Under the pieces are notes generated by a model. The model made no database searches, was not told the origin of the DNA, and saw nothing but the letters and a program-made list of their open reading frames with translations. A stretch of 64,000 nt of DNA from contig JAEUUL010000001.1 in assembly GCA_016787485.1 (NCBI GenBank), forward strand, positions 1 to 64,000. Direction: 5' to 3'. Source of the DNA: Bacteroidota bacterium (lineage in GTDB: Bacteria > Bacteroidota > Bacteroidia > NS11-12g > UBA955). Both the position numbers and the translations under genes were made by a program. Position 1 is the stretch's first letter, and each line of letters opens with the position of its first letter. Below, one piece after another: positions 19,801 to 31,438 of the stretch.

Positions 19801-21276
19801 ATGTCCATCCTGCGCAAACTGGCATCTCAAACGGCTGTTTATGGCCTGAGCACCATGGTGGGCCGGTTTCTCAACTTCCTGCTGGTACCCTTGTATACAG
19901 CGCGCCTGCAGGATGTGGCAGATTATGGCGAAGTGAATGTGGTTTTCAGCTATGCCAGTTTCCTGGCCGTGGTTTTTACCTATGGCATGGAAACCGGGTT
20001 CTTTAACTTTGCCCGCAAACACGAACAACCGGAAAAGGTATTCAGCACCGCAACACTGGCCCTGCTGATGAGTGGACTGGGTCTGCTGCTCCTGGCCCAC
20101 TTCTATGCTGATACACTGGCAGAATGGGCAGGCTATCCGGGCAAACCCGAATACGCTACCTGGTTTGCCGCCATACTTGCTGCCGATGCTGTATCCTCAT
20201 TGGGTTTTGCCTGGCTGCGCTTTGCCGAAAAGCCCTGGAATTTTGCCTTTATCCGCCTCAGCAACATCGCCGTAAACATCGGGGCAAATCTGTTTTATGT
20301 GCTGCTCTGCCCATGGCTGCTCTCACACGGTTATACCTGGGTAGAAACCATCTATGACCCCAACCGCACAGTGCAATACATCTTCTTCAGCAACCTGCTC
20401 AGCAGTCTGGTGGTATTGCCCTTGTTTGGCAAAACCTGGCTGAAACTGAAAACCGGATTTGACCGGCCACTGTTCCGTAAAATGCTGGTTTACAGCCTTC
20501 CTATGATTGTGGTGGGCCTGGCCGGCATGATCAATGAAACCCTGGACCGTATCCTGCTGAAGAAACTGCTGCCGGCCGGAGTGGGCGACTACGAAGCCGG
20601 CATCTATGGTGCCTTTTACAAGCTCAGCCTGGTACTTACTCTGTTTGTACAGGCTTTCCGATTTGCAGCAGAACCTTTCTTTTTCAAACGTGCTGGCCAG
20701 GGCGATGCACAGGCCACCTATGCCTATGTAATGAAATGGTTCGTGTATGTGTGCGGTTTTATCTTTCTGTGCACCATGGTGTGCCTGCCCTGGCTCGGAC
20801 CACTCCTCATACGCAACCCAGCCTACTTTGCGGACCCGCGCGGTTTATACGTTGTGCCCATTCTGCTCCTGGCAAACTGGATGCTGGGCATTTATTACAA
20901 CCTGAGCATCTGGTATAAGGTGACTTCCAAAACCATACTGGGTGCAATGACTGCCCTATTTGGCGCAGCCATTACCATCGGCGGAAATCTCCTGTTTATT
21001 CACACCCACTCATTCATTGCCAGTGCATGGAGCACACTGGCGGCCTATACCGGCATGGTTCTGCTGGGCTATTTCTGGGGACAAAGGGTTTACCCTGTAC
21101 CTTATGCCACAGGAAAACTGCTGGCAGTCATTTGTGGCAGTATGCTGCTGGGTTATCTGGCACATACCTATAACGGCATTGTACCTGCAGCTTCGTGGCT
21201 CACGCTGCCCGCCTATCTGCTCCTCATCTGGTACCTTGAAGTGAAACAAAAATATGTTGCAAGTAAAAATTCATAA
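19801..21276 (+). CDS. Polysaccharide/oligosaccharide flippase (MOP superfamily, Wzx-like)
   Basis: The 491-residue integral membrane protein has about 12-14 predicted helices. Its N-terminus ([30 protein letters not shown]) is typical of lipid-linked oligosaccharide flippases that move repeat units or lipid-linked sugars across the inner membrane. No glycosyltransferases are adjacent, so the substrate is open. A -7-like TAGTTTCG (19787-19794) lies 6 nt before the ATG. The 3' end overlaps dut by 23 bp, so the two genes are cotranscribed. Confidence 0.88.
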
Positions 21277-21688
21277 CACAAGCGGTCATCCGTTGCCTGC
21301 GTATCAAACGGCACTGAGTGCCGGAATGGACCTGCACGCCCACCTGTCAGAATTCACAGAAATTGCCCCCGGCAAAACCCACCTGATACCTACAGGTCTC
21401 TTTCTGGAATTGCCGGCTGGCTATGAAGCACAGATAAGGCCCCGCAGCGGACTGGCCCTGAAGCATGGCATCACCGTGCTGAACAGTCCGGGGACCATTG
21501 ATGCGGATTACCGGGGTGAGGTAAAAGTACTGCTTATCAACCATGGCCAAAACCCATTCCGGGTGGAAAACGGAGAACGCATAGCCCAAATGATCATTGC
21601 CCGCCACGAAACCGTAGAATGGCTGGAAACTGACAACCTCACGGACACCGAACGCGGAGCCGGGGGATACGGGAGCAGCGGGAAATAG
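21254..21688 (+). CDS. dut: dUTP diphosphatase (dUTPase)
   Basis: The 144-residue trimeric enzyme hydrolyses dUTP to dUMP and keeps uracil out of DNA. All five family motifs are present: [35 protein letters not shown] and the C-terminal [11 protein letters not shown] that closes over the active site. Its last 93 coding bases, the stop and three further bases (21596-21691) are repeated exactly at 31568-31663, beyond the CRISPR-Cas locus. The intact copy here shows that insertion kept the gene functional. Confidence 0.97.
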
Positions 21689-21691
21689 GCA
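21596..21691 (+). repeat. 96-bp direct repeat, copy 1 (3' end of intact dut)
   Basis: These 96 bases from inside dut to 3 bases past its stop are identical to 31568-31663. The identity ends abruptly on both sides (C versus A before, G versus T after). The two copies bracket the whole CRISPR-Cas locus (21692-31567, 9,876 bp), as expected for attachment-site or single-crossover insertion at the dut 3' end. Confidence 0.95.
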
Positions 21692-21976
21692 GTTTGACTC
21701 CAAACAGTGTCGGAAATGCAACTCTGTTGAATTTTACCGATTCATTTTAGGATTATTCCATAGGAATTTCCAACTTTTCACCCGCTTAAAATTGCCCAAT
21801 TGTTTCTAAGTATTGCCATTATCTGAACCGGATAATGACTTGTAGATAGAAATCCCTAGATTTTTAATAGCTCCAACTATAACTGTGTTTGAATACACAG
21901 AATCTGAAAGTCCTGGTAATCCATTATTACCCGCCAGCCCTGATAGGAAAAAACCTACAAACTGCCTGATGGGTAG
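21692..21976. other. Island left flank between dut and the CRISPR array
   Basis: This is 285 bp of AT-rich sequence with no convincing gene. A 7-bp-stem hairpin (CATTATC/GATAATG) lies at 21817-21837. A 61-codon frame on the minus strand (21991 to 21806) starts inside the first, degenerate repeat and is probably fortuitous. The segment is either the array's trailer (preferred, since the adjacent repeat is the most degenerate) or, less likely, a leader. Confidence 0.5.
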
Positions 21977-22564
21977 TGACTTAGTAATCATTTAATTCTC
22001 GATGGCTCAGACTACGCGGGTACAGATCCTTCCAGGGATCAACTAGCCTTAGTAATCATTTAATTCTCGATGGCTCAGACACACCGGTTAACCAGCACCC
22101 GAAAAACTTCGAAAGTCTTAGTAATCATTTAATTCTCGATGGCTCAGGCCGCGAAAGGTTCGAATTTGTAGGAATAATTAACTAGTCTTAGTAATCATTT
22201 AATTCTCGATGGCTCAGACGGTAATAGCTGATAAAGATATTATCACGACATTAAGTCTTAGTAATCATTTAATTCTCGATGGCTCAGACGCAATATGGGG
22301 AATTGGATTTTCCTGTAGAAAAGTCTTAGTAATCATTTAATTCTCGATGGCTCAGACCACTGCGCCCAGTTCAAAGGTGAACTTCCTGAGTCTTAGTAAT
22401 CATTTAATTCTCGATGGCTCAGACCCTCAAACAAAAGAGGATGAGAAGAACACTGATTAGTCTTAGTAATCATTTAATTCTCGATGGCTCAGACAAATTA
22501 CGAATTGATACACCCTAAGGATAATAACAGTCTTAGTAATCATTTAATTCTCGATGGCTCAGAC
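21977..22564 (-). CRISPR. CRISPR array, 9 repeats of 36 bp and 8 spacers of 31-34 bp
   Basis: Repeats start at 21977, 22045, 22114, 22184, 22254, 22322, 22389, 22459 and 22529. On the plus strand each begins AGTCTTAGTAATC and ends GATGGCTCAGAC; the ends can pair (GTCT with AGAC). Repeat 1 is altered at its outer end (TGAC), repeat 2 has AGCC and repeat 3 ends CAGGC; repeats 4-9 are identical. Decay on the dut side points to that side as the old, distal end, so transcription probably runs on the minus strand with the cas operon and gives a crRNA 5' handle ACTAAGAC. Only 27 bp separate repeat 9 from the cas2 stop, so any leader must overlap cas2. Confidence 0.97.
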
Positions 22565-22591
22565 AGCAAATTTACTTCATTCGGATGACTA

Positions 22592-22936
22592 TCAATACAT
22601 TGGCTCATCATTTTCTGTTTCTGTATTGCCTACAAATAACGTAATTGGCTCATTTATAACACTTTGTATTTCTGAAGCCTCGCCTACCCAATGCATTTCA
22701 GCCAGTGTGCGACGCGATACAACAATGAAAAATATCTTGTCCTCTGCCTCAGGTGGTCCCAGTCTTGTAAAAAGCACACTTAACTCCTGCTGCAACTGTT
22801 CCCACTTATGTACAGAATGCAAACCACAGAATACACTGAATTGCAATCTGACAAGTCCCCAGGACAAAAGCTTTTTGGCTACTTTGGTGCGAAGCCGGTC
22901 ATTCTTAATATCGTAGCTTACGATTCTGTATATCAT
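22592..22936 (-). CDS. cas2: CRISPR-associated endonuclease Cas2
   Basis: Cas2 forms the core of the spacer-integration complex with Cas1. The 114-residue protein starts MIYRIVSYDIKNDRLRTKVA, giving the ferredoxin-like first strand and the conserved Asp. Its ATG overlaps the cas1 stop by 4 bp. Its stop lies 27 bp from the array, leaving almost no room for a classical leader. The C-terminal 25 residues extend slightly beyond a minimal Cas2. Confidence 0.92.
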   Translation of the reverse strand: MIYRIVSYDIKNDRLRTKVAKKLLSWGLVRLQFSVFCGLHSVHKWEQLQQELSVLFTRLGPPEAEDKIFFIVVSRRTLAEMHWVGEASEIQSVINEPITLFVGNTETENDEPMY

Positions 22937-23898
22937 CTGACCCGGCCCTCCCGAATGGTTTGTACCAATAAACTGCTCAAAAAATGTATATGATCCTGCC
23001 TTTTTATCCGTTTGCCATTTAAATCAGCTCTTTCTGCCAGGTATGAAAACAAAGTGGTTAATATTTTTCTCCGCGCATCAAATTTTATTGTCGTTTTGTC
23101 CTGTAACCATTCGAAGTCATTTTCACCTATCGTTCCACTTGTCCATAACTCAGCAATCATGCGGTCTATCCAGGGCCGGAAGGGTTCAATGTGGTCATAG
23201 GCCAATGCCGGCCGGCCGTATTGATTGGCATGCATAATACCGGTATATGGATCCAGACCCACCATGAGCAAACTGCTTTCCACCATAGCATACAATACAC
23301 CATACGCATAGTTGAGACTACTGTTAAAAAAATTTGTTGTCCCCTTTTTCTCACGACCTTTAAATGCAAATTCACCGGCAAATATTTCTCCAAATGTTTT
23401 CCAGTAGTTTTTGGAAGCCCATGCTTCTGCCGCACGCAATTTTGAAAATGTGCGTATACCATGAATCTGTTCTATACACTTCTGCAACACACCAATGCAG
23501 TCTGTGCATATTTTAGTATGAGCTATTTTTCTGTTTCGGAAATACCTGATGTTGGCTTGCTGATTTTCGATTTTCATGGAAATGATTTTCTTCATCCATT
23601 CAATACCCAACGTGCCGGATGCCATTCTCATCAATCCCATTCGCACATTGGCAATGTTTTGATAATGTGCACTCCAAACCATTGCCTGCACCTTACCGAA
23701 TGCATCATACACAAGCAAAGGAACCTGATTGGTAGCGGCGAGAAGTAACACAGGGCTTGTAATGTTTACAGGCTTCATAATATTGATACTGCTTAATTTT
23801 TTCGCACTTATCAGCCGGGTCTCTTTTTCCAATGAAATTTTAAACATTTCGTTGGAAACCTCCACTTGCACGCCATATTGATCTAATATCAAATGCAT
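22933..23898 (-). CDS. cas1: CRISPR-associated integrase Cas1
   Basis: The 321-residue Cas1 has the usual N-terminal beta domain and a helical catalytic domain. The three metal-binding positions are visible: Glu in RAAEAWASKNYW, His in GIMHANQYGRPALAYD and the acidic residue in DHIEPFRPWIDR. It inserts new spacers with Cas2. The gene starts 3 bases after the reverse-transcriptase stop and overlaps cas2, so RT, Cas1 and Cas2 form one translationally coupled adaptation cassette. Unlike many RT-containing type III loci, Cas1 is not fused to the RT. Confidence 0.95.
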   Translation of the reverse strand: MHLILDQYGVQVEVSNEMFKISLEKETRLISAKKLSSINIMKPVNITSPVLLLAATNQVPLLVYDAFGKVQAMVWSAHYQNIANVRMGLMRMASGTLGIEWMKKIISMKIENQQANIRYFRNRKIAHTKICTDCIGVLQKCIEQIHGIRTFSKLRAAEAWASKNYWKTFGEIFAGEFAFKGREKKGTTNFFNSSLNYAYGVLYAMVESSLLMVGLDPYTGIMHANQYGRPALAYDHIEPFRPWIDRMIAELWTSGTIGENDFEWLQDKTTIKFDARRKILTTLFSYLAERADLNGKRIKRQDHIHFLSSLLVQTIREGRVR

Positions 23899-23901
23899 TG
23901 T

Positions 23902-24933
23902 TCAGAAAAAGGTATAAGGCATATCCAGCCAATTCGTGCTTTCATATTCTTCGACCGGGTTAAAAGCATACTCCATTTGTAATTGCAATTCCATGAGTTT
24001 TTCATCACCCGGAATAACCATGTTGGCAAAATTCCATTTTCCCCGTATTTCCGATTGAATGAGTTTGATTTTGTCTTCATCTGCTCCGGATTTGTACTTG
24101 TGGTGCAACAGCGTGAATTCCTTAAACCGGAAAATTTCTTTCTCCAATAACAACAAATAATCAGGGGGCAATTTAACCGTTTCTTCTACTATCAGGCCTG
24201 TTACCCATTTGGTGTCTTCCGGTCCGTAGAGTTTTACTTTTTCCCTGTTGATTTCAAAACCATGATATCGAATGACCTGTTTAAGCAACTGAATGTCTTT
24301 TGTGGTGATTCGCTGATTGCTGCTAAAACTCAGGTCATCCGCGAACCGTGTATACTCCAACTGTAGATTTGAACAGAGTGCTTCCAATTCCCAATCGGTA
24401 TCCAACAATGCCAGGTTACTGATTACAGGCGAGGTTGGTGAACCCATAGGCAGCCGGCCATTGAGAGTAACCAGTTTTGACAGCAACAGCACAAGCAAGG
24501 GGTCCTTTTTCCCTAGTTTGGATTCAAATATTTGTCTTACCCTGTTTTCCTTCACCGAATGAAAAAACTCTTTTAAATCGATGTTCAGCAGGAATTTCTT
24601 TCGTACATGTCTTCTGGCATTGGAAATGATATTCCTCGATTTTTCTGACCCTTTTCGTATCGTAAAGCCATATACACATTTTGGCCTGAACTGCAAATAA
24701 CTGCACTGCAGCAATAAGTTCAGCCGTTTCAACATTTCCTTAAGAACAGGTTTCGGATTCTCTATGAGTCTCCTGCCTCCGTTCTTTTTTGGTATGTAAA
24801 AACTCTGATAGGGCTTCTCACGGAATAACTGAATCAACCCGGGAATATCTGTATGAAGCAATTTTTCCAGATCTGCTGTTCTTTGCAGTGCATGAAACAG
24901 ATTGCTTTGATATGTGATGCCCGAATTTTTCAT
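23902..24933 (-). CDS. CRISPR-associated reverse transcriptase (stand-alone)
   Basis: The 343-residue protein has reverse-transcriptase motifs in order: IPKKNGGRRLIENP (47-60), NIDLKEFFHSV (117-127, catalytic Asp), LPMGSPTSPVISNL (161-174) and TRFADDLSF (195-203), with FADD in place of the common YADD. It lacks recognisable maturase or endonuclease domains and is not fused to Cas1 or Cas6. In related type III systems such RTs let Cas1-Cas2 acquire spacers from RNA. The tight spacing to cas1 (3 bp) and to cas6 (25 bp) supports that role. A retron or group II intron origin is less likely because no msr/msd-like or intron RNA sequence is evident here. Confidence 0.93.
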   Translation of the reverse strand: MKNSGITYQSNLFHALQRTADLEKLLHTDIPGLIQLFREKPYQSFYIPKKNGGRRLIENPKPVLKEMLKRLNLLLQCSYLQFRPKCVYGFTIRKGSEKSRNIISNARRHVRKKFLLNIDLKEFFHSVKENRVRQIFESKLGKKDPLLVLLLSKLVTLNGRLPMGSPTSPVISNLALLDTDWELEALCSNLQLEYTRFADDLSFSSNQRITTKDIQLLKQVIRYHGFEINREKVKLYGPEDTKWVTGLIVEETVKLPPDYLLLLEKEIFRFKEFTLLHHKYKSGADEDKIKLIQSEIRGKWNFANMVIPGDEKLMELQLQMEYAFNPVEEYESTNWLDMPYTFF

Positions 24934-24958
24934 GTATTCCTCTCATATGTCAAAGAAC

Positions 24959-25690
24959 TTACTGCGCCTGGGTTACACCCGCACCATAGCTTTTGTGCCT
25001 TCCGAGTGCTATTCCTCCGGGCAAAAGACAATTGCAGGAAAATACCACATCAAACTGCTTCTCGTAATGGGTAATTTTTTTTCCGCTGCCTTTGTCGTTT
25101 GTTGTATAAATAAAATCTTTCCGTGGATCAATATTCAGAATTTTGGGCTGTAAAATGTGCCCCCCCAAATTCCAGTTGGCTGCATAAGAAAAAAGGACCA
25201 GTTCGTTCAATAGTATTTGCTCTATCAATCCGACTTTTTCAAGCATTCCCTCTGCCCCCTGGTACTGTTTTGCCTTTTCCTGATTGAAGGGAATAAACCC
25301 CTGAATACTGTATTCATACCTGTGAAGGGTACTTTCAGGGACATGGTTCTCAGCATATTCTGTTTCTTCTATCAAGAGCTCCGGAATGACAGACCCATTC
25401 AATTCAAAATTATTTAATGGACCACCCCCCAAAAGCATACGCAAAGCGTCCACGCCTTCATTCATGGTCCAAATGTGGTGGCCCCCGCGCAGCCACCGGA
25501 ACTGAATTTTAGCATACCCCTCTATGGGTTTCTGTGTGTTAAAATCTTTATTGGTAAACAATTGTGCATGACCAGCCGGTATACCCCCTGTGCGGTACAG
25601 TTGCAAAACATAGTGCCCAAAGGCACCGCGCAAAGCCGCAGGTGTGGTTCTACCCAATGGTGTGGTAATATGGAACAGGGCTGATTTCAC
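24959..25690 (-). CDS. cas6: Cas6 pre-crRNA endoribonuclease (RAMP family)
   Basis: The 243-residue RAMP protein ends in the glycine-rich loop GGIALGRHKSYGAGVTQ typical of Cas6, which cuts the repeat RNA to give crRNAs with an 8-nt 5' handle. The N-terminal region contains PLGRTTPAALRGAFGHYVLQL. No catalytic His can be assigned with confidence. Its ATG overlaps the stop of the preceding two-TM membrane protein by 4 bp, which couples their translation. Cas6 cutting would release crRNAs from the array, which is encoded downstream on the same strand. Confidence 0.82.
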   Translation of the reverse strand: MKSALFHITTPLGRTTPAALRGAFGHYVLQLYRTGGIPAGHAQLFTNKDFNTQKPIEGYAKIQFRWLRGGHHIWTMNEGVDALRMLLGGGPLNNFELNGSVIPELLIEETEYAENHVPESTLHRYEYSIQGFIPFNQEKAKQYQGAEGMLEKVGLIEQILLNELVLFSYAANWNLGGHILQPKILNIDPRKDFIYTTNDKGSGKKITHYEKQFDVVFSCNCLLPGGIALGRHKSYGAGVTQAQ

Positions 25691-26460
25691 GAAGATTGTT
25701 GTTCCAGCACGTCTTTGTATTTAAGCAGGTTCATCAGGTTCTGGTAAATTTGAGAATACATGGTAGCCGCAGAAAAACGCATGTCATTTACTGCAGTAAG
25801 TTGCCCGCCGCCAATAAGAAAAAACAACCTGTCATCCATATTCCTTATCTGGTGCCATACTGATTCAAGTTCTGGTTTAGTATATCGTTCTGTATCGCCT
25901 GTTTTATCATTAATGAAAATCACTATATCTGTTCTGGGTTTAACTTTACTGGCCAAGCTTTCAATGGATTGAATTGATGTTGTTGTAACATTCATAAATG
26001 ACCGATTCTCATTTGTTTCGTCAAACATACTTTTCAGATTTTCGGGTAATATCTGATCTTTAAAAAGCAGGATCTGCAGATGATATTTCTTCCGCAAATT
26101 GATGGCCCAGAATTCTGTTTCCTTCAACCGGCTAAATGCGTCATTCAAGTCCGCTTGCTTTGCTTCAAGTTCTTTTTGCTGCCGTGCAATGATGAATGCG
26201 TAGAAACCTGTTATGGCAAGGCTCACTGTCGATATTACCAGGTATGACCACAAATTCTGGGACCACTGGGTTTTAATGTTATTCCATTCTATGATCATTT
26301 GGGTTTGATTCCATTCTGATTTATCTTTAACTAAATGATTGTATGCACATAGGTTATCATGATAAGTGAAGTAAAGATAACAGAATATAGCAGCAGATCC
26401 TATCAACACTGCTGACCAGGCTGCTATGGAGAATATCAAATTTCTCTTGCTCTTTTTCAT
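25687..26460 (-). CDS. Unrecognised two-TM membrane protein inside the type III operon (candidate effector)
   Basis: The 257-residue protein has two hydrophobic helices (about 8-31 and 70-93) separated by a 38-residue outer loop, then a charged coiled-coil-like stretch (94-118), then a soluble domain of ~130 residues. That domain alternates strands and helices in a Rossmann-like order: HLQILLFKD, TDIVIFINDKTGD, DRLFFLIGGGQL and a final amphipathic helix. I do not recognise a named family, and no CARF or SAVED motif is certain. It lies between csm5 (7-bp gap) and cas6 (4-bp overlap), so it is part of the operon. Architecture resembles membrane effectors of type III immunity such as Cam1 and Csx23 (inference). 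Confidence 0.85.
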   Translation of the reverse strand: MKKSKRNLIFSIAAWSAVLIGSAAIFCYLYFTYHDNLCAYNHLVKDKSEWNQTQMIIEWNNIKTQWSQNLWSYLVISTVSLAITGFYAFIIARQQKELEAKQADLNDAFSRLKETEFWAINLRKKYHLQILLFKDQILPENLKSMFDETNENRSFMNVTTTSIQSIESLASKVKPRTDIVIFINDKTGDTERYTKPELESVWHQIRNMDDRLFFLIGGGQLTAVNDMRFSAATMYSQIYQNLMNLLKYKDVLEQQSS

Positions 26461-26467
26461 ACTTTTT

Positions 26468-27709
26468 TCAATTAAATGCGATTTTTATCCATCCCATCGG
26501 TTTTGAATCTCTGCCGGTAAATACCCTGCTGCGTGGAAATACCCCACCTTCCTCGTATTTTTTGTCAATCCATTTCAGATAGGTTTCCCATACGTCTGAA
26601 TGCAATTCTTTTTTAAGCCAAAGCGCCACGGTCTGGTGAAAATACCATTTACCTGCCCCAAGCCTGATGAGGCATTCTTTGCCCGAAAGGGAATTGCATA
26701 GTTGGAGCAATTGATTCAAATGGCTTTCATACATGCGCCAGATTTCAGTTCCGAATTTCTCAACTTCGGCTATTTCTGCTTCCAACTGTTCTTTTGCAAA
26801 CTGGTTTGCCAATCTGCACAGATAGGCTGCATTGCTTAATTCTGTGTCTTTCGTTTCATGTTGCAAAATCCGCGATTTGTGTTTCTTAAAGTCACTTTGA
26901 TTCCCGTTTTTTCTCAAAAACCATTCATTTTGTGCATGCTGCATAAGGAATTCCAGTCCGTTATATGAAAGCTGGCCATGAACTACCTGTCCTTCCGGAA
27001 TTACTTCATAACATAATGGTACACGGCTGTCATCATATTTCTGTGAGTATCTGAAGCATTTGATGATTTGAGTCTCCTGGTTCCCTGAGATAAAGTCCTC
27101 AGCATGAAGAAATCTGCGTTCATATTCAGTGCAACGTTGTTCAATGAACTTGTTCAGTTTTGACAAAGATGTCCAATTTATCTTCTCGCTGCCAGAATTT
27201 AAATCATCCAGCATGTTCTTCACTCCCTTTCCGTACTGCCGGTTACGCAAAATGGCTGCCAACCTGATATTACAAAGCGCCCCTTTGATAGTGGAACCTG
27301 GAATATACCAATTACCATTGCTCTTGATGCAGGAACTGAACTCCTGCGGTTGTGGCTGGCCCTCTGCTTCCACATAGGGCACTCTTTGTTTATAAACTAC
27401 TATATCGGTCTTTAATTCTGCAAATAAAGGGGATTGAAAAAATGCTGCTTTGTTTTTATTTGTATAGGCACGGACTGTATCCAGATATTGTGCGGTTTTT
27501 TCAGGGTCACCCAATATTTGACTGAAACTCTGTGCCTTATTGATGAACTGAACCCAATCCTGTCCATCTTCTGATTTCACCACAAAATCGGTCAGCGGAG
27601 AATAAGAATTCCCATCACCGATATGCAGAGGGGTCAGCACTGTGCACTCCACGGCCATAGCAGAGAGTCTGTCTTTATTGGTCTGATACAAGGTTTCCAG
27701 TTCAGTCAT
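26468..27709 (-). CDS. csm5: Csm5, type III-A RAMP subunit
   Basis: The 413-residue RAMP protein caps the 3' end of the crRNA in the Csm complex. It opens with AVECTVLTPLHIGDGNSYSP, a common Csm5 N-terminal pattern, and carries YIPGSTIKGALCNIRLAAIL, the RAMP helix motif. The start at 27709 is chosen because it overlaps the csm4 stop by 8 bp; further in-frame codons upstream lie inside csm4. It is followed by the two-TM membrane protein rather than directly by cas6 or csm6. Confidence 0.88.
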   Translation of the reverse strand: MTELETLYQTNKDRLSAMAVECTVLTPLHIGDGNSYSPLTDFVVKSEDGQDWVQFINKAQSFSQILGDPEKTAQYLDTVRAYTNKNKAAFFQSPLFAELKTDIVVYKQRVPYVEAEGQPQPQEFSSCIKSNGNWYIPGSTIKGALCNIRLAAILRNRQYGKGVKNMLDDLNSGSEKINWTSLSKLNKFIEQRCTEYERRFLHAEDFISGNQETQIIKCFRYSQKYDDSRVPLCYEVIPEGQVVHGQLSYNGLEFLMQHAQNEWFLRKNGNQSDFKKHKSRILQHETKDTELSNAAYLCRLANQFAKEQLEAEIAEVEKFGTEIWRMYESHLNQLLQLCNSLSGKECLIRLGAGKWYFHQTVALWLKKELHSDVWETYLKWIDKKYEEGGVFPRSRVFTGRDSKPMGWIKIAFN

Positions 27710-28697
27710 GTTTAAAGATGTTTTCAGGTAAAGGGATAGCCATAAATCTGCCATAACGCAGTACCGGATCATCTTCCGTAACACTCAGGTCTGCAATCTG
27801 GCCTTTTTGTTCCTGCCAGCGGCATATGCTTCCACTTTTTACACAAGGTACCACTTTAGCCCGCTGCTCGTCGAAACCTAACTTATATCCACCACGTAAC
27901 TCTTTATGATAATAAGTAAGTGCACTCATTTCCTCTTTCTCCGGAATGTAGTTCGAAATGGTCATAACCATTTCACCCTCTTTCAATACAGTTTGAATTT
28001 TTTCTTCTACCCGGATATCAACGACCGGTTTATTGGAATTCTTCCGCCCACCAAAGCCAAAATGTTTCCAATACCCAAACAGCGGAGTAAGTTCATTTTT
28101 TATCTGCTCAGAACAGTTGAGGTAGAAATACAAACCAGTTTCGGCGGAAGGTGTGTGTAAATTTGTTTCTACAAAGGTAATTTGGTAGTAGGAGTCATCG
28201 GCTTTGGGTTTGCGGGCTGATACCTTGGGGATATCCGTCTTTCTGGCAAGTACATTCACATTACTAAGCAAATCTCTTTCTGATGGTGTAATTAAAAACA
28301 AACTTTGCAATACGGGTGCTTTTTCAGAACCTGCAGGTGACAATTCTTTCAATGCGCTTTCTGAAACATACCGGACCTTACTGAGCATTTTGTCTTTCAC
28401 GGCTCCCAGCCTTCCCACAAATACCGGTTTAGGCAAAAAACGCACAAGCCTATCTTCCTTTTTTAAAAAATAGAAAGCATCAGAAATGCCAATTTCATGG
28501 TTTTGAAATTGTAACACCAAAGTTTCAGCCAGCGCAGGTGAAAGCAGATTTGCCATTGTTCCGAGAGAAGAAAACAGGGTGTCTGATTTCGGAGCCCAGT
28601 CGGTATCATTGAGGTTTTCACTATCAAAAGGAGTGTACCTGCCAAACCGGAACTTGGCATTTGGTACAAGCGATATATAAATCACATATTCAGGCAT
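27702..28697 (-). CDS. csm4: Csm4, type III-A Cas5-like RAMP subunit
   Basis: The 331-residue subunit binds the 5' handle of the crRNA and contacts Cas10. The N-terminus (YVIYISLVPNAKFRFGRYTP) and the glycine-rich GYWKHFGFGGRKNSNKPVVD are typical of Csm4. The gene overlaps csm3 upstream and csm5 downstream by 8 bp each, so stoichiometric translation of the complex is likely. All expected Csm1-Csm5 subunits are present in canonical order. Confidence 0.9.
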   Translation of the reverse strand: MPEYVIYISLVPNAKFRFGRYTPFDSENLNDTDWAPKSDTLFSSLGTMANLLSPALAETLVLQFQNHEIGISDAFYFLKKEDRLVRFLPKPVFVGRLGAVKDKMLSKVRYVSESALKELSPAGSEKAPVLQSLFLITPSERDLLSNVNVLARKTDIPKVSARKPKADDSYYQITFVETNLHTPSAETGLYFYLNCSEQIKNELTPLFGYWKHFGFGGRKNSNKPVVDIRVEEKIQTVLKEGEMVMTISNYIPEKEEMSALTYYHKELRGGYKLGFDEQRAKVVPCVKSGSICRWQEQKGQIADLSVTEDDPVLRYGRFMAIPLPENIFKHD

Positions 28698-29400
28698 GAC
28701 TGGTTATCAACAACGCATGGAATGGGTCTGTGGAATCAACTTCTTCATCCGTTGCATTCAAGCTAAATGGTTTCTCCGCAACACTAAAGGTTTTCCTGTT
28801 AATACCATCTATGGAGATCTTAACTCTTCCATATCCTCTGGAACCCGAACCACCAAGGTAATCCCTTTGAAGCAAATCAAAACAAATCTCGAGTACCTTA
28901 ACCACATCCGGAAGAGATGGACCAACCTCGAAATGAAAATACTCAATCGAAGAAGTAAATATTGCCCCTTCAGGTATCCGTTCAATTTGCCTGGGATTTG
29001 GCTTTCCGGTGACCCTGTTTATGGTGTTTTCGAACTTTATCTGGCTGAACTCTTCATCCAGATTTTCACTGGTAAAAGTGCCCTTAAAATGGGAGGTATT
29101 CAAAAAGGCATCGTCAAAATGCAGGCGTGTTACTGATTTATTCCTTCCACCACTGTCTCCAAAAAGGTCTTTTACGATTTGCATATCATTACCGACATCC
29201 GTTTTGCCTGTAACTTTGCCAATCAGGCTCCTGCTTTTGCCCTTAATTGTACTGCCGGGTATGAATGGCTGACCTTTACCGTCTTTAATCACCGGACTAT
29301 CGACACCACCAATCTCCAGTGTATTCTTATTTCCACCGATATGCAATCCGGTTCGCAGGGTTATGGTATATTTCAGGGTATAAATATTTGTGAGTTTCAT
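28690..29400 (-). CDS. csm3: Csm3, type III-A backbone RAMP and target-RNA nuclease
   Basis: The 236-residue protein forms the backbone filament of the Csm complex and cuts bound target RNA at 6-nt intervals. The catalytic Asp is in IGGVDSPVIKDGKGQP near residue 33, and FIPGSTIKGKSRSLIG is the RAMP helix. It is therefore predicted to be an active RNA nuclease. The start overlaps the csm2 stop by 4 bp. Confidence 0.94.
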   Translation of the reverse strand: MKLTNIYTLKYTITLRTGLHIGGNKNTLEIGGVDSPVIKDGKGQPFIPGSTIKGKSRSLIGKVTGKTDVGNDMQIVKDLFGDSGGRNKSVTRLHFDDAFLNTSHFKGTFTSENLDEEFSQIKFENTINRVTGKPNPRQIERIPEGAIFTSSIEYFHFEVGPSLPDVVKVLEICFDLLQRDYLGGSGSRGYGRVKISIDGINRKTFSVAEKPFSLNATDEEVDSTDPFHALLITSHA

Positions 29401-29846
29401 GTGTTTTTGTCTGTGTTATAGAATTTGTGGTATGCTACGATTGATTCCATGATATATTTAAAATTGCTCATGTTTTTATCTGTTGCATGCACAATCATTT
29501 TATCAATAAGACCGGCAACTGGTGCAAATTTTTTTTCTCTTGCCGCGATATAAGCCAGGCGTGGTCTTTCCAACAGCAAATCCTGGGGTTTGCGTTTGTT
29601 TCGCAGCTGAGAATAGATATTGCGCAACTGATGTGTAGTTATAACTTCCAGTCCAAATTGCATCAATGAATGTGAATCAGGATTAACAACATCCTCAAGA
29701 ATTTGCAAAGCTTTATTAATAGTATCAGAATCCAGTTCGGATATATTATCTGCTTCCAAAAGCTTCATGATGTCAGGCCATTTATTGTCGATATATTTTA
29801 TGACCTCCTGGGACTTATCTGTGTTTTTTTCACTCATATTTCTCAT
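29397..29846 (-). CDS. csm2: Csm2, type III-A small subunit
   Basis: The 149-residue helical small subunit lines the belly of the complex along the crRNA-target duplex. The C-terminal half has LRNIYSQLR, RPRLAYIAAREKK and NFKYIMESIVAYHKFY, which are characteristic of Csm2. A second in-frame ATG at 29837 is an alternative start. It begins 2 bases after the cas10 stop and overlaps csm3. Confidence 0.9.
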   Translation of the reverse strand: MRNMSEKNTDKSQEVIKYIDNKWPDIMKLLEADNISELDSDTINKALQILEDVVNPDSHSLMQFGLEVITTHQLRNIYSQLRNKRKPQDLLLERPRLAYIAAREKKFAPVAGLIDKMIVHATDKNMSNFKYIMESIVAYHKFYNTDKNT

Positions 29847-29848
29847 AT

Positions 29849-31438
29849 TTATTTAACTGAATATTCAGCCAGACGAACGGCAGCAAATATTTTTTGCATA
29901 TCCATTTTTCTTTCCATATCCATTTTACTTTCCATATCCATTTTGCTTTTGTTGAAAATTGCCGGCCGCAATCTTTTGTTGTAAATTTCATCCAAAAGAA
30001 ACTGGTGGTCCGACCCTTTGTAATTTCGCAATCCATACAGAAATTTAGGCAGGACGAGTGGATTAAGCAGAATCTGTTCTCCGGGTTTAATGTACCTGCC
30101 ATAATAAGCAAGCATGCCCTGCAACATAGATTTCGGAGATCCTTGTAATATTCGTTTGGTTAATTCTACTTTTAAATGCAATATATCTTCAAAAGCATCC
30201 CAGGAATAAGGATAACCAAGTATTGCAATGCTATTCTTTCCAGCTTGTTTGGCTTGTTGCTCGGCCTCTTCTGCAAGTTCAGCAAACCTTCTTACCGGAA
30301 ACTTTGGATTTATCAGGATATATCCCGCACTGAGTGAATGTGTTGGTTCCGGAAAACACTTTTTAAATTCTGATTTAACTTTTACAGCAAACTCCAAAAC
30401 GGCATCCCACCCCCCGATAAAAAAGCAGTCATCACCCCCACTAAACACGCAGTATATGTTTTGTTTAAAAGACCAAGTGTCTTTTATGGGGTGATTATTG
30501 TATTTACTCTTTTGATGTGGTTTTCTGAGAGATGTAAAGGTTTGATTCAAGATATCGTTTATCTGCTCTGAAAAGAAATTCTTTATGTATCCGCTGAAAT
30601 CACAGTATTCCTGCTCAGTGTGCCGTTGAGAAAACAACTTGCCCAAATTGTCAACATCCATTTTAAGCACACCCAGCTTTTCTTGCCCGGTGCGCAAGTT
30701 GGCCAGATATGCCAGTTGTTCAAATGTGTATTGACTATTGTTCAGTTTTTGTATTTCCTTTTTTTGACTATCTCCCGGCTTATAAGTATCTATCAATACT
30801 TGAACAAAATCTTCATTGCCACCAGGAAAATGTCCTTTTATTCCCAAAGATTTGAAATCTATTATGGCTGTTGTAGAGAAGTCTATTGACAGATTTTTGA
30901 ATGAGGGAAATGTTTTTCTGGCATTTTCCTCATTCTCAACGATACGGTAATGACTATGTTTCTTAAGCTTGTCAGACAGACCGTTGTAGTCATTTGTGTC
31001 TTTTTCAAAATCATAAGGTGTCGGTTCAAAATCAGGGCAAAGGCGCGAAAGATTCAGTGCTTTCTGTAATTCCAGCAGATTGTTTCTAAAAACATCCTTT
31101 TGTTCTGTTGAATAAGCCCAGGCAAATGAAAGCTCCCTGCCTTTGACTATGGTTTCCAATTCTTCCCGGCAATCATCAATGTGTGCTATCACTTCTGATT
31201 CTGGTTTCCTTGTCCGGACCAAAAACTGTCCGCCACCGTGGTATAAAACATCTTCAATGCCGATATTCAGCTTTTGCCGGGTATACTCTAGAACCAACGC
31301 ACTCAAAGCTTCAATATAAAAGGAACGTGCCCGTAATTGCTTTGCCGCCCCTCTGGAAGGAATTGTAAAGATGAAATCCTGAATTCCGGAGAGTTCAAAT
31401 TTCATCAATGCTGAGGGTGTAGATTCGCTGAATGACAT
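29849..31438 (-). CDS. cas10: Cas10/Csm1 without HD domain, intact GGDD cyclase
   Basis: At 529 residues this is much shorter than typical Cas10 (about 750-850). It begins in the first Palm domain (FELSGIQDFIF, about residue 14) and lacks the N-terminal HD nuclease. The zinc-finger cysteines between the Palm domains are also not seen. The second Palm domain is intact, with MDVDNLG (260-266) and GGDD at 334-337, so cyclic-oligoadenylate synthesis should be possible while DNA cleavage should not. The C-terminus carries a hexapeptide repeat (SKMDME-like, x3) encoded by an 18-bp tandem repeat. It is the first gene of the operon; TAAATTGC lies 6 nt before the ATG. Confidence 0.94.
   Translation of the reverse strand: MSFSESTPSALMKFELSGIQDFIFTIPSRGAAKQLRARSFYIEALSALVLEYTRQKLNIGIEDVLYHGGGQFLVRTRKPESEVIAHIDDCREELETIVKGRELSFAWAYSTEQKDVFRNNLLELQKALNLSRLCPDFEPTPYDFEKDTNDYNGLSDKLKKHSHYRIVENEENARKTFPSFKNLSIDFSTTAIIDFKSLGIKGHFPGGNEDFVQVLIDTYKPGDSQKKEIQKLNNSQYTFEQLAYLANLRTGQEKLGVLKMDVDNLGKLFSQRHTEQEYCDFSGYIKNFFSEQINDILNQTFTSLRKPHQKSKYNNHPIKDTWSFKQNIYCVFSGGDDCFFIGGWDAVLEFAVKVKSEFKKCFPEPTHSLSAGYILINPKFPVRRFAELAEEAEQQAKQAGKNSIAILGYPYSWDAFEDILHLKVELTKRILQGSPKSMLQGMLAYYGRYIKPGEQILLNPLVLPKFLYGLRNYKGSDHQFLLDEIYNKRLRPAIFNKSKMDMESKMDMERKMDMQKIFAAVRLAEYSVK
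29897..29950. repeat. 18-bp tandem repeat (3 copies) in cas10 3' end
   Basis: Three 18-bp units beginning CATATCCATTTT follow each other at 29897, 29915 and 29933, with changes only near the unit ends. They encode repeated KMDME-type hexapeptides near the Cas10 C-terminus. Copy-number change would keep the frame and only vary the tail length. Confidence 0.85.

Follow-up and report, generated by a model that had tools for sequence, protein, structure and literature searches.

A compact leader at the cas2 stop codon and the reading direction of a III-A CRISPR array in a Bacteroidota bacterium

The CRISPR array found in the 64,000-nucleotide stretch of DNA analysed here (the window) comes unusually close to its cas genes, with a mere 27 bp between the last repeat and the cas2 stop codon. 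This raises the question of where the leader of such an array would lie, which of its ends grows, and which of its strands is turned into crRNAs. A first-pass annotation, made from the sequence alone, proposed that there was no room for a leader between array and cas2, that the leader had to lie within cas2, and that the array was transcribed on the minus strand. As set out below, the system is an ordinary one, though unusually compact: a normal III-A array read on the strand of its cas genes.

The cas operon and its array

Its genes identify the locus as a III-A CRISPR-Cas operon that includes a free-standing reverse transcriptase (RT) of retron type. Its genes, all on the minus strand, follow the order cas10-csm2-csm3-csm4-csm5-(membrane protein)-cas6-RT-cas1-cas2-array, nearly all of them touching or overlapping, and all cas genes are open. 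The III-A set lies in one operon, with five of five families above the curated cut-offs: cas10/csm1 (29849-31438, 529 aa), csm2 (29397-29846; PF03750, 1.2e-11), csm3 (28690-29400; TIGR02582, 2.6e-47), csm4 (27702-28697; TIGR01903, 1.5e-32), and csm5 (26468-27784; TIGR01899, 2.9e-18), the last of which has a GTG start that gives an 83-bp overlap with csm4, so that its true start may be later. Closer to the array are cas6 (24959-25690, 243 aa; Cas6b_C, 9.7e-10, slightly below the cut-off), the RT (23902-24933, 343 aa; FADD, NARRH and VTG motifs), cas1 (22933-23898, 321 aa; PF01867, 5.8e-62) and cas2 (22592-22936, 114 aa; PF09827, 1.7e-13, and TIGR01573).

The HD nuclease domain of Cas10 is usual in III-A systems, without being universal. 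Cas10 of the window has the GGDD cyclase motif (CVFSGGDDCFFI), and neither an HD family match nor an HD dipeptide was found in its 529 aa; against the profile TIGR02578, its best stretch begins at position 410 of 753. The membrane protein encoded between csm5 and cas6 (25687-26460, minus strand; 257 aa, two helices, weak NARF-like Rossmannoid domain) is a candidate type III effector. Like-built proteins, with 16-21% identity, are encoded in the cas operons of the related loci L213, L232, L220, L217 and L233, directly past cas6 in the first four. By analogy, it may act at the membrane as an effector of the Cap1 kind, Cap1 being described as a cA4-gated pore of a III-A system (PMC12642688). Solved structures gave only chance matches to the family of this protein, and its own predicted structure was too poor (pLDDT 48.8) to be used as a search query.

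The array (21977-22564, minus strand) consists of nine repeats of 36 bp, with the minus-strand sequence GTCTGAGCCATCGAGAATTAAATGATTACTAAGACT, and eight spacers of 31-34 bp. It runs from the oldest repeat, R1 (21977-22012), to the leader-proximal one, R9 (22529-22564). On the plus strand, the base preceding the repeat is A at all eight internal junctions and T before R1, which makes 36 bp a better repeat unit than 35 bp. The repeat was found nowhere else in the 3.41-Mb assembly. The same genome encodes a second cas2 (L124; G000:C14:90000-106000), with a 39-repeat array of type II-looking repeat 110 bp downstream. The distance reported by the first-pass annotation is exact, since the gap covers 22565-22591 and the stop codon 22592-22594, and so is its account of the repeats: R4-R9 are identical, whereas R1 and R2 differ at position 2 and R3 at position 34 (of a 35-bp unit). 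The chance of three mutated repeats among nine all being at one end is 2/84.

The growing end, the leader and a putative promoter

Relatives of the locus were collected by searching with Cas1 within the families to which two previous matches belong, and many loci of the same plan were obtained. The relative set comprises, besides the window, 28 arrays lying at most 600 bp downstream of cas2, 15 of them with an RT and 13 in which none was found; arrays farther than 600 bp from cas2 (L210 and L211 among the RT loci) were left out, and L241, with three copies, was excluded from the counts of leader motif, gap and repeat degeneracy. A broader survey of the class started from 60 stretches selected among Cas2 matches in 119 genomes, together with ten earlier loci and the window, and was reduced to 44 distinct arrays downstream of cas2 by removing gaps below 0 or above 1000 bp and duplicate consensus sequences. 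The 27-bp gap is the smallest among these 44 arrays (the next are 39 and 92 bp, a value of -13 being an artefact that was removed) as well as among the 29 of the relative set, where gaps range from 67 to 476 bp with an RT and from 33 to 211 bp without. The short gap is therefore real and extreme, even though locus L233 has one of 33 bp.

In the 28 other relatives, the array follows cas2 on the cas strand. When arrays with fewer than four repeats are excluded, the distal half, away from cas2, holds most of the mutated repeats in 21 of the 29 arrays, the window included, and the near half does so in only one, with seven ties, which points to the cas2-near end as the growing one. Together with the mutated R1-R3 at the far end of the window's array, this polarity bears out the earlier proposal that new spacers enter at the cas2 side. 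Reading on the cas strand also gives repeat ends like those of type III repeats: GATTACTAAGAC in the window, GATTACTGAGAC in its nearest relative, L207, GGATTGAAAC in L216, and GGATTAAGAC in several relatives without an RT.

The comparison of relatives for a conserved leader-like element, suggested in the first-pass annotation, was productive. In 28 related leaders, searched with the window excluded, a motif of 13 bases, about ACTGATTTTCAGT, ends 17-20 nt ahead of the first repeat in most cases. Its total score is 193 at best, against 141-155 in three sets of shuffled leaders, and in a leave-one-out test the best match is in register in 22 of 28 leaders and in none of 22 distal flanks. The window carries this motif at the same distance from the first repeat: within the 120 bases ahead of R9, the top match (ATTGATAGTCATC, 22584-22596, minus strand) ends 19 nt before the repeat, with a score that random 120-bp pieces of its genome equal or exceed in register with a chance of 0.0024. 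At 6.2, the score itself falls in the lower half of those of the training set, and a match of nearly the same score (6.1) exists in the dut-side flank, but about 83 nt away and out of register. Given this position, the first five bases of the motif include the cas2 stop codon; likewise, the motif of L233 extends into cas2, ending 25 nt from the repeat.

The leader would thus be a compact element of 32 bp (22565-22596, minus strand), made of the 27-bp gap and the last 5 bp of cas2, in which the tail of the final codon is followed by the TGA stop. The claim that there was no room for a leader does not hold, since the in-register motif indicates that the leader thought to be missing exists and is merely short. 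The claim that it lies within cas2 survives for these first 5 bp, the rest being in the gap. In the open-access literature we found no leader overlapping cas2.

The same element has a promoter-like site. The motif TANNTTTG is a Bacteroidota promoter motif, and a -7 box of this type, TAAATTTG (22567-22574, minus strand), stands 2 nt before R9, with a TTG that would serve as the -33 element (22593-22595, minus strand) 18 nt upstream of it. The putative promoter TTG-N18-TAAATTTG spans 22595-22567, its TTG falling inside the tyrosine and stop codons of cas2. In 555,730 bases of the genome, 128 stretches upstream of genes contain TANNTTTG 32 times in all, whereas their opposite strand has 11 occurrences and shuffles give 8; TTG is commonest 19-20 nt ahead of it. 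Given a genome-wide frequency of 0.043 per kb and strand, such a promoter-like site would appear in 31 bp with a chance of about 0.001. Among the 44 arrays of the class, 13 have TANNTTTG on the cas strand within 60 bp of the first repeat, compared with 3 on the other strand and 1.8 in shuffles. It was not found, however, near the first repeats of the nearest relatives, which counts against a promoter form shared with them, so that the promoter reading draws on this genome and on the other arrays of the class; the 322 bp preceding cas10 did not contain it either. No terminator-like site was found between cas2 and the array, and read-through from the operon, as first proposed, is possible on these sequence grounds, but it is not needed to account for transcription of the array.

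The strand of the spacers and the competing readings

The first-pass annotation had also drawn on spacer composition, and its count is reproduced: in the plus-strand sense, 150 of 264 spacer bases are purines (36-bp unit; binomial p = 0.031), an excess of A over T (96 against 61), with G and C nearly equal (54 and 53). As evidence of strand, this purine richness is weak alone. The open frame noted in each spacer is real but does not discriminate, since all eight spacers are open in one frame or more on either strand. Stronger evidence comes from codon order. A three-phase coding-sequence model, which is right about the sense strand for roughly 75% of 34-base pieces, was trained with the arrays kept out, and its result held when nine ORFs running through arrays were removed from the training. 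By this test, the crRNA strand is antisense in 277 of 372 spacers from 16 RT-linked loci, and in 118 of 174 spacers from 12 relatives without an RT (effector type not verified in every locus). Locus L040 is counted here as RT-linked because its contig begins inside an RT-like fragment, and without RT in the counts of repeat ends, motif and polarity. In comparison arrays, whose labels were assigned from the repeats alone, by repeat forms that we take to mark each kind, antisense calls were 83 of 166 (type II-like), 354 of 660 (ATTGAAAC-like), 37 of 67 (type V-like), and 108 of 179 (others). Shuffling each spacer abolishes the signal, which therefore lies in codon order and not in composition.

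In the window, seven of eight spacers are called antisense (exact sign-flip p = 0.023), or six of eight with a model of its own genome (p = 0.039), in a test limited to these few spacers. An initial model, built from this genome and with the repeat taken as 35 bp, gave p = 0.15 against random sense for the array alone. Codon order gives good support to the view that most spacers of these arrays run antisense to coding sequence, the orientation that a type III system requires, and the proposal of minus-strand crRNAs antisense to mRNA gains from the agreement of polarity, repeat ends and codon order. Within RT arrays, the mean score differs little between the young half (-1.21) and the old one (-1.14), and the antisense bias is no proof of an RNA origin of the spacers, because arrays without an RT look alike. 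For RT systems, an absence of strand bias at uptake has been described for genes other than rRNA (PMC9048733). The result suggests that the direction of a type III array is readable from the codon order of its spacers alone, without the often-missing protospacers.

Searches for protospacers gave none. The array had 17 matches in phage records, the best with E = 7, taken as chance, and spacers S2-S8, each back-translated in one plus-strand frame, had no match in viral contigs. Among 108 genomes of the order, S4 with part of R5 had one weak match, in G678 (79% of about 52 nt, E = 1.4e-4 for one genome), which is intergenic by eye and was not relied on as a protospacer. The strand of the real targets is consequently deduced from the spacers themselves.

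On this evidence, we consider it likely that this III-A array is transcribed along the cas strand, with a compact leader and promoter at the cas2 stop and minus-strand crRNAs antisense to mRNA. Cas1-Cas2, with the RT, would insert new spacers at the cas2-side edge of R9 by means of the short leader; a local promoter, aided by read-through from cas2, would transcribe the minus strand from that same edge; Cas6 would cut the transcript; and the Csm complex would use the crRNAs to bind complementary mRNA, upon which Cas10 may make a nucleotide signal, a step proposed because no HD nuclease matched.

Other readings have to be weighed against this one. An array with neither leader nor promoter, whose crRNAs come from operon read-through only and whose signal for integration is part of the cas2 coding sequence, would agree with a gap that is the shortest in both sets, with the lack of a terminator-like site and with operon genes that overlap or nearly touch. 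It is nevertheless unlikely, as the conserved motif stands 19 nt before R9, much as in the relatives, and so has only 5 bp within cas2, and as a site of the type enriched upstream of this genome's genes lies 2 nt before the repeat. Less probable still is that the array is a decaying leftover, its leader deleted down to the short gap and its growth ended: it has only eight spacers and all other gaps of the relative set are longer, but R4-R9 are identical, the leader motif and the promoter-like site are present, all cas genes are open, and the RT keeps its active-site motif.

The opposite direction, with plus-strand reading from a leader between dut and R1, is very improbable. The 289-bp gap there would be long enough for an ordinary leader, and its plus strand (21689-21976) folds somewhat better than shuffles (z -2.8). 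On the other hand, the mutated repeats are at the dut end, the polarity of the relatives is opposite, no TANNTTTG occurs on the plus strand, the leader motif is out of register on this side, and the spacers would be sense, unlike those of the relatives. The same stretch has a short minus-strand open frame just beyond R1, possibly a gene remnant.

The reverse transcriptase and known systems

NAxxH is a motif of retron-type RTs. The RT of the window, which has a FADD active site, matches the solved RT of retron Ec67 with 1.1e-28 and a Cas6-RT-Cas1 fusion with 5.9e-6, and carries NARRH and KWVTGLIV, the latter with the VTG described for retron-type RTs (PMC5541045). Its gene adjoins cas1 and is collinear with cas6, cas1 and cas2. 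In the RT tree, 18 CRISPR-linked RTs, the window's included, form one branch against 21 other RTs (support 100/99), which had no cas neighbours in the loci examined. The sister of the window RT is that of L207 (98/97), and the 18 RTs mostly stand in the order cas6-RT-cas1-cas2-array. For an msr-msd RNA next to the RT, an Rfam scan of 21200-25000 gave one chance match, and cas6 and the RT gene are 25 bp apart. A contig search with the RT gave one locus, where only the RT matched among the ten cas-operon proteins of the window. Cas1 had four plasmid matches, with no RT named in the gene tables shown, and no match in viral contigs.

Several of these loci show variations of their own. In a sub-branch (L217:9934-10974, L220:9191-10231 and L213:1763-2578), the RT active site is FVDD, replacing YADD or FADD. 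In L210, cas2 precedes RT and cas1, and in L221, extra arrays with nearly identical repeat flank the RT-cas1-cas2 genes on both sides.

A more ambitious reading, which we hold only tentatively and regard as doubtful, is that the 32-bp element would be at once cas2 stop, docking signal for integration and array promoter, serving a clade of retron-derived RTs that maybe write spacers from RNA. The locus offers in any case a minimal natural leader, roughly 32 bp long, that lends itself to dissection piece by piece, in a system with a little-studied CRISPR reverse transcriptase.

The antisense bias can be set beside the published finding that type III spacers mostly target mRNA, on average 65% by mapped protospacers (PMC8482600); here it is drawn from codon order without protospacers, and looks stronger. 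As for the RT, CRISPR RTs are described as having arisen at least three times, once from retrons (PMC11014452). The III-B RT-Cas1 system of Marinomonas mediterranea resembles the window in having an RT with Cas1-Cas2 beside a type III effector, and its in vitro integration substrate had a 40-bp leader (PMC11014452), but its RT is of group II intron type and fused to Cas6 and Cas1, whereas that of the window is free-standing and retron-like. In Haliscomenobacter hydrossis, of the same phylum, a retron-like RT with the VTG motif lies beside a CRISPR-Cas locus (PMC5541045, PMC6013744). That RT was viewed as a single case, possibly a recent retrotransposition (PMC5541045), whereas here 18 CRISPR-linked RTs share one branch.
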